From Ferrovibrio sp. (GTDB taxonomy: Bacteria > Pseudomonadota > Alphaproteobacteria > Ferrovibrionales > Ferrovibrionaceae): DNA of 64,000 bases. The notes under the pieces are model-generated. The model ran no database searches. It had not been told where the DNA came from and was given only the letters and a program-made list of their open reading frames with translations. The first letter of the stretch is position 1; every line of letters starts with the position of its first letter. Below are positions 44,478-60,200 of the stretch, piece by piece. The stretch spans positions 62,001-126,000 of the forward strand of contig NZ_JAGOLP010000001.1 in NCBI RefSeq assembly GCF_017994015.1. The letters run 5' to 3'. Position numbers and translations under genes: made by a program.

Positions 44478-44639
44478 GTGTCCGATAGCTCCTGTGATGT
44501 TCCGATCAGGCTGCAGCCAAACGAAAAACGCGCCCGTGCGCGACACTCGCGGACGGACGGCGATCCTCGGACCGGGGCAGTTTCCCTAACCGGAAAGCGG
44601 GCGGAATAAACCGCCTTGGGCCGGCATTGTCAAGCCGCC

Positions 44640-51713: not shown

Positions 51714-52313
51714 TCAACCAGCGAGGTTGAGCGCCAGGAAGGCAATACCGGTCAGGCCGGCAACGGCACCGGCCAGGCGGCGCGCCAGCAGCGGCTGGGC
51801 CGGATCAAACTTGCGCCAGACCAAAGCGGCGCCGGCACAGAGCGCAAACTGGATCAGCGCCAGGCCAACCAGATAGCTCAGCAGCGGCGTGGTTTCGGCG
51901 CCGACAATGCTTTCGCCAAAGGCATAACCATGGAACAGGCCGGCCACCGCCAGCAAGGCGGCAAAGCCGGCATCGCCCAGTGGCACCGCCCGCAGCAGCA
52001 GCAGGCCGAGCGCCAGCACCGACAGCGCCACTGCGATCTCGCCGCCCGGCAGGTCAATGCCCTGGATATGCAGCAGCGTGCCAGCCAGCGAAGCCAGGAT
52101 GAAAGCCAGCGGCAGCAGCAGGAAACGCTGACGGGGCGCGGCGAGCAGGCCGGCAGCAAGCAGGAAGACGAGGTGATCGAGGCCGATGATCGGATGGCCC
52201 AGGCCGGAGAGGAAGCCGGCAGCCAAGCTGTTGGGCAATTGCCCATCCATGGCGTGATGCGCGAAAGCAGGCATAGCAAAAAACAGCGTGGGCAAGGCCA
52301 GCAAGGCGCGCAT
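51714..52313 (-). CDS. HupE/UreJ-family metal permease
   Basis: A 199-residue membrane protein starting at the ATG at 52313 with a signal-like first helix (MRALLALPTLFFAMPAFAH). The family signature HPIIGLDHLVFLLAAGLLA near 45-63 is intact, as is the FHGYAFGESIVG motif near ~125; six or seven helices in all. HupE and UreJ carry nickel or cobalt for hydrogenase or urease; neither enzyme is in the window. Being divergent from a copper-type locus, it might import cobalt (inference from cobalt/B12 genes elsewhere in the window). Confidence 0.88.
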   Translation of the reverse strand: MRALLALPTLFFAMPAFAHHAMDGQLPNSLAAGFLSGLGHPIIGLDHLVFLLAAGLLAAPRQRFLLLPLAFILASLAGTLLHIQGIDLPGGEIAVALSVLALGLLLLRAVPLGDAGFAALLAVAGLFHGYAFGESIVGAETTPLLSYLVGLALIQFALCAGAALVWRKFDPAQPLLARRLAGAVAGLTGIAFLALNLAG

Positions 52314-52441
52314 GGATTTTCTCCGTCTATATGGTGCGGCAAGGCTAGCCGCTCCCGGCAGCCGCGTCAAACGCTAGCGCTGTATACACTGCGACTTCCT
52401 GTCGCTTGTGCCGCTGCGCTGAAAGTTGTTACTTCTGCGCC

Positions 52442-53940: not shown

Positions 53941-56058
53941 TTGAATCCGTCCTCTATCCGCGCGCGCGTCGAAAAGACGTTGCCGCGCCTCGCCCTTGCC
54001 TTGTTTGCTTCCGCCAGCCTGCTGGCCCTGTTCAGCGGCGCGGCACGCAGCCAGACCACGCTGCCCGCCGTGACCGTGCAGGGCCAGGCCGAATCTGACA
54101 GCCTGACCACACCGAATGAAACCGAGGCCCGCCGCAGCCTGGAGAAAATTCCCGGCGCGGTGGGTTTTGTCAGCGAAGCGGAAATCCGCGACGGCCGCAG
54201 CGCCACGGTGAAAGACCTGCTAGATTATGTGCCCGGCGTGTTTGCACAGCCGAAATACGGCCAGGAAGATGCCCGCCTCTCGGTGCGTGGCTCCGGCCTG
54301 TCGCGCAACTTCCATCTGCGCGGCATGCGCCTGCTGCTGGATGGCGTGCCGATCAATCAGGCCGATGGCGCCGGCGATTTTCAGGAAATCGACCCGCTGG
54401 CTTTGCGTTATATCGAAGTCTACAAGGGCGCCAATGCGCTGCAATTTGGCGCTGCCGGCCTGGGCGGTGCGGTCAATTATGTTTCCCCCACCGGGCGTAG
54501 CAATCCGGGTTTCCTGACCCGCCTGGAAGTCGGCTCGTTTGAAACCCTGCGCACGCAGCTTGCCGCCGGCCAGGCCGAGGGCGCTTTTGACTATTATGTC
54601 TCCGGCAGCTACGGCCATGCTGAAGGCTACCGCGATCATACCGATCAGGATTATGCGCGCCTGAACGGCAATGTCGGCTATCGCTTTGGCGATGGCGCCG
54701 AGACGCGCTTTTACCTGAGCGCCAACAGCATCAACCAGAAAATCACCGGCAGCCTGACCCGCAACGCTGTTTTCGCCACACCGGAATCGACGGTGGAAGG
54801 CAATTTCGGCCACAACCGCAACAACACCAAGCGCGACATCAATTCCCTGCGTGTTGCCAACAAGACCACCTGGCTGACCGATAACGGCGATTTCACCCTG
54901 GGGGTTTATTACGCCAACAAGGAATTGTTCCATCCGGTGATCTTCAGCCCGTTCTTCGGCATCGTGATCGAGAATGAGGAAAACAATTACGGCGCTTATG
55001 CGCGTTACACCCAGAGCGGGCTGCTCTTTGGCAACCGCAACGACCTGGTGCTGGGGGCGCATTATTTTGGTGGCGTGAACCGCGCCCGCACCTTCAACAA
55101 TGTGGGTGGCTCACGCGGCGCGCTGGCAAGCGATGCCGACCAGATTTCCGCCAATGCGGAAATCTATGCCGAGAATGCGCATTATGTGGCGCCCACACTG
55201 GCTCTGGTGACCGGCGCGCAGGGTAGTTTTTCGGAACGAAATCTGGAGGATAAATTCCTCTCCGATGGCGACAATTCCGGCAGCCGCAATTTCTATGCGG
55301 TGAACCCCAAGCTGGGCCTGCGCTGGGATGTGACGCCGGGCATTCAGGTTTTCAGCAATCTCAGCCTGGCCAAGGAAGCCCCGCCCTTCTCGGAGCTTGA
55401 TCCGGCCAGTTCCGGCGCGGGCCTGTTTCCGCTCAAGGCGCAGAAATCCACCACGCTGGAAATCGGCACGCGCGGCAAAAACGGCGATTGGGGCTGGGAT
55501 GCGGCGCTCTATCGTTCCTGGCTGCGCGATGAAATCCAGCAGGTGCTGATCGGCACCAGCGACGAGGCGCGCAACCTGGACAAGACAATCCATCAAGGCC
55601 TGGAACTGGGCGGCGACTGGGTGGCTTTGCGTAATGCCGTGGCGCAGGGCGACAATGTGACCACGCGGCTGGCCTACACCTTCAGCGACTTCCATTTCGA
55701 CAATGACGCCACTTTCCGCGACAATAAAATCCCCGGTGCGCTACGGCATTATCTACGGGCGGAACTGCGTTATGCCAGTGGCGCCGGCTGGTATGTGGCG
55801 CCGAATCTGGAATGGGTGCCGGAGGCCTATCATGTTGACAATGCCAACACCACCAAAACGGCGGCTTACGCATTGCTGGGCATGAAGGCCGGTTATGATT
55901 ACGGCAACGGCCTGAAATTTTTCCTCGATGGCCGCAACCTGCTCGACAAGACCTACATCTCCAATGTCAGCGTCATCTCAACCGCCGCCAACGGATCGCT
56001 GCTCTACAATCCGGGCGACGGCCGCGCCGTCTATGCCGGCGTGGAATGGCGTTTCTGA
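53941..56058 (+). CDS. TonB-dependent outer-membrane receptor (FecA-like; probable metal uptake)
   Basis: A 705-residue receptor; signal peptide about 1-37, a TonB box near TLPAVTVQ, plug domain with VKDLLDYVPGVFAQPKYGQEDARLSVRGSGLSRNFHLRGMRLLLDGVPINQADG and a 22-strand barrel ending GVEWRF with terminal Phe. It starts at TTG with AGGGGAA upstream. Position after DUF2946 and YcnI-PCuAC points to copper or a metal complex as substrate, though the plug resembles siderophore receptors; iron chelates cannot be excluded. Convergent with btuB, 7 bp away. Confidence 0.88.
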   Translation: MNPSSIRARVEKTLPRLALALFASASLLALFSGAARSQTTLPAVTVQGQAESDSLTTPNETEARRSLEKIPGAVGFVSEAEIRDGRSATVKDLLDYVPGVFAQPKYGQEDARLSVRGSGLSRNFHLRGMRLLLDGVPINQADGAGDFQEIDPLALRYIEVYKGANALQFGAAGLGGAVNYVSPTGRSNPGFLTRLEVGSFETLRTQLAAGQAEGAFDYYVSGSYGHAEGYRDHTDQDYARLNGNVGYRFGDGAETRFYLSANSINQKITGSLTRNAVFATPESTVEGNFGHNRNNTKRDINSLRVANKTTWLTDNGDFTLGVYYANKELFHPVIFSPFFGIVIENEENNYGAYARYTQSGLLFGNRNDLVLGAHYFGGVNRARTFNNVGGSRGALASDADQISANAEIYAENAHYVAPTLALVTGAQGSFSERNLEDKFLSDGDNSGSRNFYAVNPKLGLRWDVTPGIQVFSNLSLAKEAPPFSELDPASSGAGLFPLKAQKSTTLEIGTRGKNGDWGWDAALYRSWLRDEIQQVLIGTSDEARNLDKTIHQGLELGGDWVALRNAVAQGDNVTTRLAYTFSDFHFDNDATFRDNKIPGALRHYLRAELRYASGAGWYVAPNLEWVPEAYHVDNANTTKTAAYALLGMKAGYDYGNGLKFFLDGRNLLDKTYISNVSVISTAANGSLLYNPGDGRAVYAGVEWRF

Positions 56059-56065
56059 TTAGAGA

Positions 56066-58069
56066 CTAAAAATCCAGCCCGAGCCGTGCCATCGCGGTGC
56101 GGCCGGGCTGGGGATAGTAATTATAGCTGCCATAGGTGGTGGCGCTGGCGACACTGTAATCATAATAGGTCCGATCCAGCAGATTCTGCACCGCCAGCGA
56201 CCAGCGCAGGCGATTATCAAACGCGCCGCTCAAGCGCAGATCCAGCAGCACATGGCCAGGAATTTGCGGCTGGAAATTGCGCTCGTCATTCTCCATGCGG
56301 CGCGCACTGAAAAAACGCGCATCCATATCCAGCAGCACCAGCTTGGGCAGGATATCCCACGAGAAACCGATATTGCTGGTCCATGTCGATACCAGCGGCA
56401 CCCGCTTGCCGGCATTGGCGCCCTTGCGGAATTCGGCATCAATATAGCCCGCACCAGCGCGCAGCTTCAGTTCCGGCAGTAGCTGATAATCGCCACTGGC
56501 CTCAATGCCACGCCGCTCGGTCGGGTCGAGATTGCGATTGGTGAAATTCACCGCATTGAACGCCAGTTCGTTTTCCAGCCGCATGACATAGGCGCTGAGG
56601 CGATAGCCGGCGGCACCAGCCTTGCCCTGGAAGCCCAGTTCCACGTCCTGCGAGGTCTGGGTTTGCAGCCGGAAATTGGTTGGGCTGCCCATGCCGATAC
56701 GTTCATCCAGGGTTGGGAAGCGGAAGCTGCGCCCGGTGCGGCCAAACACTTCAAAGGCCGGCGCGAACCGATGTTCGAAGCCAAGATGATAGGCATAGTC
56801 GGTGGCTTCGTCATCAAACGGTGCGCCTTGCGAGCCGAAACCGCCGCCCGGCGCGGTGGCATCATAACGATCCCGCGCCGAAACCTCGGTGCGCTGCAAA
56901 CGCAGGCCAGCGGAAAGGTCGGTGGCGGCGGTCACCGCCAGCGTGGATTGGCCATACAGCGCCAGGCTCTGCTGCTCGGCATCGTAGCGATGGATCGGCC
57001 GGTTGCCGGCGCGTTCCTGACGATCGGATTCGTAATCCGCATTATAGAGATCAAGGCCGAGGATCGAATTGAGGCCAAGCTCAAACGGGCGGTTTTGCAG
57101 CGTCAGGCGTGGCGTGAAGGAATAGGTGGTGAGTTCGGTATCAACATAGGATGGGAAACCGGACTGATCAAAATAGGCATCCTGCGATTTGCGCCGTACG
57201 CCGGCATCCAGCACCAGATCGGCATGGTTGCCGATCAGCCAAGTGCCGCCGATGGTCAGATTCTGGCCCTGCTTGTTGGCATAATCATAGGGATTGGTGG
57301 CACCCCGGGGATGCTGGCCGGCCAGCCGCGAGCGGCGCTCGCCGGGCAGGCCAAGCTGCTGGTCGTCGAGCGAAAAATTCATATAGAGATCGCCGAAATC
57401 CAGCCGGCGGCGAATTTCGCCATTGGCATTGCGCTGCAACAGCTTGTTATTCTGGCGGTAGCCGTCGCTATTGGCAAAGCTGCCATAGGCGCTGAGTTCA
57501 AAGCCATCGATGCTCTGCCGCGCCGAAGCGGCGGCTTCGCGCTGGCCCAATGAACCGATGCCGGCATCCAGGCTGTAGCCCGGCCGCGCCGCGCCCGAGG
57601 TGACGATATTGATCACGCCGCCCATGGCGCCATCGCCATACAGCACGGCGCCGCTATTGCCGCGCATCAGTTCGATCCGCTCGATGCCGGCCTTGGGCAA
57701 GGCGGCAAAATCGATGCCGGCCAGATCAAGATCATTGAGCCGGCGGCCATTCACCAGCACCAGCGTGTTGGCCGAAGCCGTGGCGCCGAAGCCGCGCATA
57801 TCGACTGTGGTGCCGGCGCCGCCAACCCCGCCATAGAGGCTGCGCAACTGGATGCCGGATTGGCGGCCAAGCACGTCCTGGATCGTCTCGCCCGGGCTGC
57901 GCTGGATTTCTTCATAGCCGATCACACTGGTGGCAACGCCGGTGATGCCGTCGCCAAGCCGGCTGGCGGTGACCAGCACCGGCGGCAATTCAGCATATTG
58001 CTGCGCCAGCGCCATATTTGGCGCCAGGAGGGACAGAGTGAAACAAAGTGAATAACGGTAGGTCGGCAT
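56066..58069 (-). CDS. btuB: TonB-dependent vitamin B12 receptor BtuB
   Basis: A 667-residue outer-membrane receptor. The ATG at 58069 with AAGGAG upstream gives a signal peptide ending ALAQ; ELPPVLVTASRL is the TonB box, followed by the plug (PGETIQDVLGRQSGIQLRSLYGG, VLVNGRRLNDLDLAGIDFAALP, IERIELMRGNSGAVLYGDGAMGGVINIVT) and a barrel ending ARLGLDF. Its leader contains a cobalamin riboswitch, the main reason for assigning B12 (or cobinamide) rather than another substrate. A stem near 58091-58108 just before the start may hide the ribosome-binding site. Confidence 0.92.
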   Translation of the reverse strand: MPTYRYSLCFTLSLLAPNMALAQQYAELPPVLVTASRLGDGITGVATSVIGYEEIQRSPGETIQDVLGRQSGIQLRSLYGGVGGAGTTVDMRGFGATASANTLVLVNGRRLNDLDLAGIDFAALPKAGIERIELMRGNSGAVLYGDGAMGGVINIVTSGAARPGYSLDAGIGSLGQREAAASARQSIDGFELSAYGSFANSDGYRQNNKLLQRNANGEIRRRLDFGDLYMNFSLDDQQLGLPGERRSRLAGQHPRGATNPYDYANKQGQNLTIGGTWLIGNHADLVLDAGVRRKSQDAYFDQSGFPSYVDTELTTYSFTPRLTLQNRPFELGLNSILGLDLYNADYESDRQERAGNRPIHRYDAEQQSLALYGQSTLAVTAATDLSAGLRLQRTEVSARDRYDATAPGGGFGSQGAPFDDEATDYAYHLGFEHRFAPAFEVFGRTGRSFRFPTLDERIGMGSPTNFRLQTQTSQDVELGFQGKAGAAGYRLSAYVMRLENELAFNAVNFTNRNLDPTERRGIEASGDYQLLPELKLRAGAGYIDAEFRKGANAGKRVPLVSTWTSNIGFSWDILPKLVLLDMDARFFSARRMENDERNFQPQIPGHVLLDLRLSGAFDNRLRWSLAVQNLLDRTYYDYSVASATTYGSYNYYPQPGRTAMARLGLDF

Positions 58070-58154
58070 CGCGGGCTCCTTGAGCCTGAGGGTGACAGAT
58101 CTGCCACCGCTGCGTATGCCGCTCCGTATGGTGCTCCCGCCCATCGGTTGGGTG

Positions 58155-58315
58155 ACTGTGCCGGCAGGTCTCCTGGCTCGCGAATCACCGTCCCTTGCGC
58201 CAGCCTTCCCGGTTGCCCAGTGACTTTAATTGCGCGGACTCATCGCTCACAGTTGCGGGATCAGCCCCGGATTGACCATCCAACAGATGGCCTACCGTGT
58301 TCCCTCTTGCCTCCA
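58155..58315 (-). ncRNA. Cobalamin riboswitch
   Basis: On the minus strand the conserved elements occur in the right order: GGGAACACGGT near the 5' end, GATCCCGCAACTGTGAGCG (core J6/3), GTCACTGGG, CCGGGAAGGC, and the B12 box AGCCAGGAGACCTGCC at 58163-58178. These are the consensus elements of the adenosylcobalamin riboswitch class. It lies about 90 nt upstream of btuB and would repress it when B12 is abundant. The outer limits are approximate. Confidence 0.95.
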
Positions 58316-58353
58316 CGCTGACCAAAGATCAGCGCAGAACCGACAGCGCCGCG

Positions 58354-58381
58354 ATCATACGCGGGAATGTGATCGGGTCAA
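58354..58381 (-). promoter_or_regulatory. btuB promoter
   Basis: TTGACC (58376-58381), 16 bp, TATGAT (58354-58359) on the minus strand, placing transcription start near 58347, some 30 nt before the riboswitch. The -35 lies 4 bp from the -35 of the divergent ABC-transporter promoter. Confidence 0.6.
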
Positions 58382-58385
58382 TCCA

Positions 58386-58414
58386 CTGACGCCGATACGA
58401 AAACCCGCCATAAT
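58386..58414 (+). promoter_or_regulatory. Promoter of the SbmA/BacA-like ABC transporter
   Basis: CTGACG (58386-58391), 17 bp, CATAAT (58409-58414) on the plus strand, 28 bp before the gene start. It is back-to-back with the btuB promoter, so one regulator could affect both. The riboswitch itself cannot act on this transcript. Confidence 0.45.
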
Positions 58415-58442
58415 CCGGCAGGTTTTCCGTTCAGAGGCAGGC

Positions 58443-60200
58443 ATGGACAAGCTCAAGGCGTTCTTCCGCGATTTCTGGCATATCGCCAAGCCCTACTGGA
58501 CCCAATCGGATGAAAAGCTGGTGGCCTATGGCCTGCTGGCAGCGGTGGTGGCGCTGAATCTGGCCTCGGTCGGCCTCAATGTCTGGTTCAATTTCTGGTA
58601 CAATAATTTCTATAATTCGATCCAGGAAAAGGATTTTGAGGCCTTCAAAAACCTGCTGCTGCAATTCAGCCTGGTGGCGGCAGCCTTCATCTTTGTGGCG
58701 GTGTATCAGCTTTATCTTGGCCAGATGCTGCAATTGCGCTGGCGCCGCTGGCTCACCGAAAAATGGCTCGGGGAATGGCTGCATGGGCAGCGCTTCTACC
58801 ATATGCAGCTCTTTGGCCTTGGCACCGACAATCCGGATCAGCGCCTGGCCGAAGACCTCAAATTGTTCACCGGCTACTCACTGAATATCAGCCTCGGCCT
58901 GTTGAGCGCCGTGGTGACGCTGTTTTCCTTCCTGCATATCCTTTGGGAATTGTCGGGCGATCTGGCCTTTGCACTCGGCGGCCTGGATATCCGCATCCCG
59001 GGCTACATGGTGTGGGTGGCATTGGTCTATGCCATCCTGGGCACCTGGCTCACCAACCGGATCGGCCGGCCGCTGGTGGGGCTGAATTTCCACCAGCAAA
59101 GGTTTGAGGCTGATTTCCGCTTCCATCTGATCCGGCTGCGCGAAAATGCCGAAGGCGTGGCGATGCAGCGTGGCGCCCTGGTGGAACAGCATGATCTGCT
59201 GGGCCGTTTCAGCCATGTGGTGGGCAATTATCTCAAGATCATGGCCAAGCAGAAACAACTGACCTGGTTCACCGCCGGCTATGGTCAGGTGGCGGTGGTG
59301 TTTCCGTTCATTGTTGGCGCGCCGCGCTATTTCCAGGGCAGCTTGGCGCTGGGCGGCCTGATGCAAACAGTATCGGCCTTTGGCCAGGTGCAGAGCGCGC
59401 TGAGCTATCTGATCAGCGCCTATGTCGATATCGCCGAATGGCGTGCCGTGGTCAGCCGCCTGACCGGCTTCCAGGCCGGCATCACCGAAGCCGCCAGGTT
59501 GGCCGCCAGCAGCGGCATCCAGATCAAGGATGACGCAGCAGGCATCAGCGTGCCGGCCCTGACCCTGGCGCGGCCCGATCTTGCCGGCCAGGCAGGTACG
59601 GCACTGGCGCGGATCGAGGATTTCCATCTCAAGCCTGCCGAGCATGTGCTGCTGCAAGGCGGCTCGGGCAATGGCAAGAGCACGCTATTGCGCGCCCTGG
59701 CCGGGCTGTGGCCGTTCGGCACGGGCGTGATACACCGCCCGGCCGCCGAACAATGCCTGTTCCTGCCGCAGCGGCCCTATCTGCCGGTGGGTACGCTGCG
59801 CGCCGCCCTGGCCTATCCCGTGCCGGCAGAAAAATTTGACGATGCCGCCTTGCGTGCTGCGCTGGCAGCACTCGACCTCAATGCGCTGGGCGACCGGCTG
59901 GACCAGGAAGCCAATTGGGCGCAATTACTTTCCGGCGGCGAGCAGCAACGTGTGCAACTGGCCCGCGCTCTGCTGCACAAACCGGCCTGGCTGTTCCTGG
60001 ATGAAGCCACCGCCGCACTGGATCCGGCCAGCGAAGCCCGCGCCCTGGCAGCATTGGCGGCTGCCCTGCCACAGACCGGCATTTTCAGCATCGGGCATCA
60101 TGCCGGGCTGGAGCAGCATCAGCGCGTGCTGCGCCTGGAGCATGACGCCGCCAACCAACCGGCCAGGCTGTTGGCCGCAGAGCTACGGAGCCCAGCATGA
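58443..60200 (+). CDS. SbmA/BacA/ABCD-type ABC transporter (fused permease-ATPase)
   Basis: A 585-residue half-transporter of the ABC_membrane_2 family (YddA, Mycobacterium Rv1819c, eukaryotic ABCD). About six membrane helices occupy residues 20-330 with ASVGLNVWFNFWYNNFYNSIQ, LRWRRWLTEKWLGEWLHGQRFY and the conserved NPDQRLAEDLKLF. The ATPase has Walker A GGSGNGKSTLLRALAGLWP (~407), signature LSGGEQQRVQLARALL (~497) and Walker B WLFLDEATAALD. Rv1819c imports B12 and hydrophilic peptides; being divergent from btuB, this protein may move cobalamin across the inner membrane (inference). It overlaps the VOC gene by 4 bp. Confidence 0.9.
   Translation: MDKLKAFFRDFWHIAKPYWTQSDEKLVAYGLLAAVVALNLASVGLNVWFNFWYNNFYNSIQEKDFEAFKNLLLQFSLVAAAFIFVAVYQLYLGQMLQLRWRRWLTEKWLGEWLHGQRFYHMQLFGLGTDNPDQRLAEDLKLFTGYSLNISLGLLSAVVTLFSFLHILWELSGDLAFALGGLDIRIPGYMVWVALVYAILGTWLTNRIGRPLVGLNFHQQRFEADFRFHLIRLRENAEGVAMQRGALVEQHDLLGRFSHVVGNYLKIMAKQKQLTWFTAGYGQVAVVFPFIVGAPRYFQGSLALGGLMQTVSAFGQVQSALSYLISAYVDIAEWRAVVSRLTGFQAGITEAARLAASSGIQIKDDAAGISVPALTLARPDLAGQAGTALARIEDFHLKPAEHVLLQGGSGNGKSTLLRALAGLWPFGTGVIHRPAAEQCLFLPQRPYLPVGTLRAALAYPVPAEKFDDAALRAALAALDLNALGDRLDQEANWAQLLSGGEQQRVQLARALLHKPAWLFLDEATAALDPASEARALAALAAALPQTGIFSIGHHAGLEQHQRVLRLEHDAANQPARLLAAELRSPA

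Follow-up and report, generated by a model that had tools for sequence, protein, structure and literature searches.

A Cobalamin Riboswitch-Controlled BtuB-Type Receptor Gene Divergent from a Likely Polyspecific Rv1819c/BacA-Like Transporter Gene in Ferrovibrio sp.

Introduction

Many Gram-negative bacteria have the outer-membrane receptor BtuB but lack the inner-membrane importer BtuCDF, and how vitamin B12 (cobalamin) crosses their inner membrane is mostly unknown (PMC6072759). One described solution is BtuM, a small B12 transporter of the membrane that is linked to btuB and carries an invariant cysteine (PMC6072759). Another is known from mycobacteria, where M. tuberculosis loses B12 uptake when Rv1819c is deleted (PMC3603451) and the polyspecific BacA of M. 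marinum moves cobalamin in both directions in liposomes (PMC10960864). The related SbmA/BacA proteins import peptides (PMC10960864, PMC13316013). Furthermore, Rv1819c reportedly resembles YddA and ExsE, neither of which is known to import B12, more closely than it does BacA/SbmA (PMC3603451), so that membership of this family does not by itself predict B12 transport. On the regulatory side, a B12 riboswitch ahead of btuB shuts off translation reporters in Caulobacter crescentus (PMC6538847), and a survey of riboswitch regulons listed 26 groups of B12-transport genes (PMC3766115).

Here we analyzed a stretch of 64,000 nucleotides from Ferrovibrio sp. (contig NZ_JAGOLP010000001.1, positions 62,001 to 126,000; hereafter the window), in which a btuB gene under a cobalamin riboswitch stands back-to-back with a gene for an ATP-binding cassette (ABC) transporter of the Rv1819c/BacA type. 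A sequence-only reading of this locus had proposed the ABC protein as the inner-membrane step for B12. Our analysis favors a more modest view, namely that a B12-scavenging module made of the riboswitch and a BtuB-type receptor probably lies beside a resident ABC gene whose product is likely polyspecific.

Results

The cobalamin riboswitch aptamer (RF00174) was located by Rfam cmscan at 58146..58359 on the minus strand, with 98.2 bits against a gathering score of 31.5 (E = 2.6e-23) and a full-length alignment to model positions 1-189. The btuB gene (56066..58069, minus strand) starts 76 nt downstream of it and encodes a TonB-dependent outer-membrane receptor with plug (PF07715) and barrel (PF00593) domains, the architecture expected of BtuB under B12 control. 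Its start codon was placed at 58069 (MPTYRYSL...), behind the Shine-Dalgarno sequence AAGGAG; the upstream ATG at 58144, which had been taken as the start before, was judged unlikely because the Shine-Dalgarno sequence and a signal-peptide-like beginning favor 58069. The top NCBIfam match of the receptor was TIGR01779 (TonB-B12), with 139.7 bits where the cut-off is 599.7, and the second curated BtuB equivalog, NF007926, was likewise missed (123 against 836), so that we use the name BtuB on the strength of the riboswitch and of the best-hit similarity. Orthologues of the receptor with a riboswitch were found in four relatives.

A consensus scan gave promoter-like sites for both divergent genes, TTGACC - 16 - TATGAT for btuB (58354..58381, minus strand) and CTGACG - 17 - CATAAT for the ABC gene (58386..58414, plus strand). 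Their -35 elements begin at 58381 and 58386 and are thus separated by 4 bp, as the sequence-only reading had it; both are consensus matches only, two being found where 0.1 was expected in shuffled sequences. No terminator-like site was found between the aptamer and the btuB start codon, and in the predicted fold the Shine-Dalgarno sequence can join a hairpin (GGCUC-AAG-GAGCC), a weak signal with z of -1.1, suggesting that the block of btuB is probably translational. The C. crescentus btuB gene likewise lies behind a B12 riboswitch, whereas no ABC neighbor was reported there (PMC6538847). The two organisms also differ in that Caulobacter cannot make B12 while the window genome probably can.

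The ABC gene (58443..60200, plus strand; ATG at 58443, stop codon ending at 60200) begins about 84 bp from the riboswitch and encodes 585 amino acids. An ABC_membrane_2 type transmembrane domain (PF06472, residues 28-297) and an ATPase domain (PF00005, residues 393-524) are fused in one chain, and PF05992 (SbmA_BacA) is the second match of the transmembrane domain, in agreement with the earlier assignment to the SbmA/BacA/ABCD type. Among solved structures, 6tqe and 6tqf ranked first, covering residues 6-564 (E = 1.2e-91, 311 bits). Next came a chain of plant ABCD1 with 212 bits; ABCD4 scored about 141 bits and SbmA 71 bits. We take 6tqe, whose record carries a generic molecule name, to be Rv1819c of M. 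tuberculosis. The full-length match settles the predicted fold of the ABC protein, and the stretch DNPDQR is common to it and to the mycobacterial protein. Rv1819c differs in being a mycobacterial protein for which B12 uptake has been shown, whereas the window protein is known from its sequence and has the divergent riboswitch-btuB unit adjoining it. Human ABCD4 belongs to the same superfamily but is a lysosomal protein of a eukaryote and a weaker match than Rv1819c. SbmA and rhizobial BacA share with the window protein a transmembrane domain that matches PF05992 and NF008306; they lack an ATPase domain, however, and the window protein, which has one, does not qualify as an SbmA/BacA protein of the SLiPT kind (109.5 bits against the SbmA cut-off of 492). 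The ABC gene lies on the strand opposite the riboswitch, which heads btuB only, and a search for a riboswitch on the ABC side found none, so the statement that btuB alone is controlled by the riboswitch stands.

The riboswitch, btuB and the ABC gene were found together in four species, the window genome (G000), its near-twin G004, G003 and G007, the ABC gene starting 84-96 bp from the riboswitch and the identity among the ABC proteins falling to 66%. These btuB-linked ABC proteins form one clade (support 100/98). In four sister species (G001, G002, G005 and G006), the same block contains an ABC orthologue (60%) and no btuB, the block lying partly beyond the contig for some of them. The order of this block is HupE - DUF2946 - YcnI/PCuAC - PqqU-like receptor - (TonB) - (AraC, glyoxalase) - ABC - HtpX - argG. 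In eight members of the genus, the ABC gene still neighbors the PqqU-like receptor gene, HtpX-argG or both, and four of these members have no btuB there. In G007, the ABC-btuB pair persists and the other genes of the block on the btuB side, including the PqqU-like receptor gene, are lost. The simplest history is that a btuB module was inserted once next to an ABC gene already in place, or that a single set of losses occurred, and the adjacency is best traced to a single event within this clade. Beyond the genus, relatives of the ABC protein were compared at 63 places in 56 genomes, and at none of them was a cobalamin riboswitch detected within 30 kb, a figure that is a lower bound owing to contig ends; the second of the riboswitch surveys behind it had stricter filters. 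A scan of a contig collection with the ABC protein returned a single true relative, UBA7691. Neither recurrent linkage nor co-regulation therefore marks the ABC gene by context as dedicated to B12. The expectation that btuB-BacA pairs would be found in relatives held inside this clade of four species and failed outside it.

BtuCDF is absent from the window, as had been noted, and a search of the draft genome (4.27 Mb in 124 contigs, 87% complete) did not reveal it either. A complete BtuCDF system, which would have argued against the earlier proposal, is thus not seen. The draft genome contains two FecCD permeases, one beside haem-type genes for a binding protein, ATPase and TonB receptor, and the other with tungstate/molybdate-type transporter genes, a layout that recurs in G006. 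BtuC was the best NCBIfam match of both (225 and 258 bits against a cut-off of 461), and both were rejected as BtuC given these scores and neighbors. One FecCD permease each was found in G003 (99% complete), G007 (98%) and G004 (83%), and it is haem-linked in G003 and G007, the two examined. Within the limits of draft assemblies, none of the four paired species has a recognizable BtuCDF. The species G010 of the same family has a riboswitch-btuB-btuF-btuC-btuD run, and its ABC homologue is distant and unlinked. Note that a BtuF-like binding protein is encoded behind btuB in G007 (L042:11297-12067), with no signal-peptide-like start as read and with no cognate FecCD in that genome.

With regard to B12 synthesis, the window genome has a cobalamin biosynthesis cluster led by cobW-cobN under its own riboswitch, as well as CbiC, and on these genes it probably makes B12. 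On the other hand, G007 has no CbiC and carries metE under a riboswitch, so that it probably depends on B12 uptake. A second CbiC-like protein is encoded beside HupE, outside the main cobalamin cluster (G000:C71:257897-258472; L131 in G003), and G003 has no CbiC other than the copy in L131.

A membrane protein of about 175 amino acids is encoded behind btuB in G007 (L042:10770-11300) and G003 (L041:4430-4957). Relatives of it were found in 16 of 385 alphaproteobacterial genomes (14 further loci). Of these 16 genomes, 12 have the gene 0.16-2.8 kb behind a cobalamin riboswitch and on its strand, where 0.02 would be expected by chance; it stands directly behind the riboswitch in three of the 12. 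Cys30, Pro33, Gln62, Gly65, Tyr71 and Trp80 are invariant. The family has no Pfam or NCBIfam match and no match to a chain in the Protein Data Bank (PDB) at E up to 10, and it may bear a name in older surveys of riboswitch regulons. Like BtuM, the protein of G003 and G007 is linked to btuB and has an invariant cysteine; however, the cysteine of BtuM is near residue 80 and that of the small protein near residue 30, and no homology was detected that would make it a relative of BtuM. We regard the family as a candidate inner-membrane transporter of B12 or cobalt, which in G003 and G007 is better supported than the ABC protein. It was not found in the window genome (87% complete) or in G004 (83%), which leaves the ABC protein among the few candidates there. 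Additionally, on contig C15 of the window genome (L008:6108-9685), another cobalamin riboswitch precedes the gene for a siderophore-type TonB receptor and, after it, that for a PepSY membrane protein, and such units were also seen in L076, L078 and L082, the species concerned being G000, G004, G005 and G006.

Among the neighboring genes, a second TonB-dependent receptor (53941..56058, plus strand) was assigned as PqqU-like by synteny and by a match to NCBIfam NF041535 (172 bits against a cut-off of 1200), and it is the syntenic partner of the ABC gene across the genus, with or without btuB. Downstream of the ABC gene, a glyoxalase-fold protein (PF00903; 60197..60604, plus strand) is encoded by a gene that overlaps the ABC stop codon (ATGA) and adjoins the ABC gene in most members of the genus. 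An AraC-like gene separates the two in G004, G003 and G007, and is absent in the window, where they overlap by 4 bases. A HupE/UreJ permease (PF04955) is encoded at 51714..52370 on the minus strand; it stands behind a cobalamin riboswitch in G005 and G008 (L040:8057-9019; L079), with none in the window, and the riboswitch-linked form likely serves cobalt uptake. The riboswitch of G005, 4.7 kb from the ABC gene, was rejected as a regulator of the latter because it drives HupE. The window also contains an Rfam match to the ffh small RNA (sRNA) at 44523-44574 on the minus strand (45.7 bits).

Discussion

The individual parts of this locus belong to known kinds, and the question is how they work together. 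When cobalamin is scarce, the leader would permit production of BtuB, which, driven by TonB, would carry corrinoids into the periplasm. With cobalamin in ample supply, the aptamer would block expression of btuB, probably at translation. The ABC protein would most likely be a polyspecific transporter of the exporter fold outside the control of this riboswitch. Like mycobacterial BacA, it may take in B12, and adjacency to btuB alone is no proof of a dedicated role. Several observations fit this account less well: the btuB-ABC pair outlasted divergence to 66% identity of the ABC proteins, it survived loss of the btuB-side block in G007, and no other known inner-membrane B12 route was recognized in the window genome, BtuM not having been searched for. 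In addition, the occurrence of HupE under a cobalamin riboswitch in two species with the same block hints at a cobalt/B12 theme for the block as a whole.

The alternative proposed by the sequence-only reading is that BtuB delivers B12 to the periplasm and the ABC protein then transports it inward with ATP, without riboswitch control, as the inner-membrane importer of this organism. Rv1819c, for which uptake is documented, is its best solved relative, far above ABCD4; no BtuCDF was recognized in the paired species, whereas G010, which has the full btu operon, has only a distant and unlinked ABC homologue; and the window genome and G004 have no alternative small membrane protein. These points make the ABC protein a fair candidate, given its family and that nothing else was recognized. 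However, there is no shared regulation, the four sister species carry the ABC gene at the syntenic position with this btuB missing, linkage is lacking outside the genus, and G003 and G007 have another membrane protein in the riboswitch operon. The reported closeness of Rv1819c to YddA and ExsE also weakens the argument, as does the apparent ability of the genome to make B12, with which the need for import would not have to be strong. The proposal is thus partly supported, by the lack of a recognizable BtuCDF, the similarity to Rv1819c and the persistence of the pair, and we consider the role itself rather unlikely. The wider claim that in this clade an Rv1819c-like ABC protein replaced BtuCDF as the Gram-negative inner-membrane B12 importer behind a riboswitch-controlled BtuB appears slightly more doubtful.

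A stronger competitor, which we rate as a serious possibility somewhat short of probable, is that another protein performs the inner-membrane step, namely the small protein in G003 and G007 and, in the window genome, an unrecognized system such as the PepSY protein of contig C15 or a BtuCDF hidden in an assembly gap. The same-strand linkage of the small protein to riboswitches, its BtuM-like invariant cysteine and the riboswitch-TonB receptor-PepSY units are consistent with this. Against it, the small protein was not found in the incomplete window genome and its near-twin, and the nearly complete genomes of G003 and G007 have only a haem-type FecCD permease. It is also conceivable, though rather improbable, that the ABC protein has no link to B12 and serves the ligand of the PqqU-like receptor, or peptides. 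The ABC and PqqU-like genes adjoin, mostly on one strand, with no btuB between them in G001, G002, G005 and G006, and related SbmA/BacA proteins take up peptides, but G007 keeps the ABC gene and btuB although the PqqU-like receptor is gone from the locus. The probabilities of these explanations overlap because transport of B12 by the ABC protein would not require it to be the sole or a dedicated route. A B12-scavenging module beside a resident ABC gene with a probably polyspecific product remains our preferred account.

If an Rv1819c-like protein does act behind BtuB, a mechanism so far known from mycobacteria would apply to Gram-negative bacteria as well. The comparison also yields a second and better-linked candidate, the riboswitch-associated family of small membrane proteins, which makes the question of the inner-membrane step testable in sister species.

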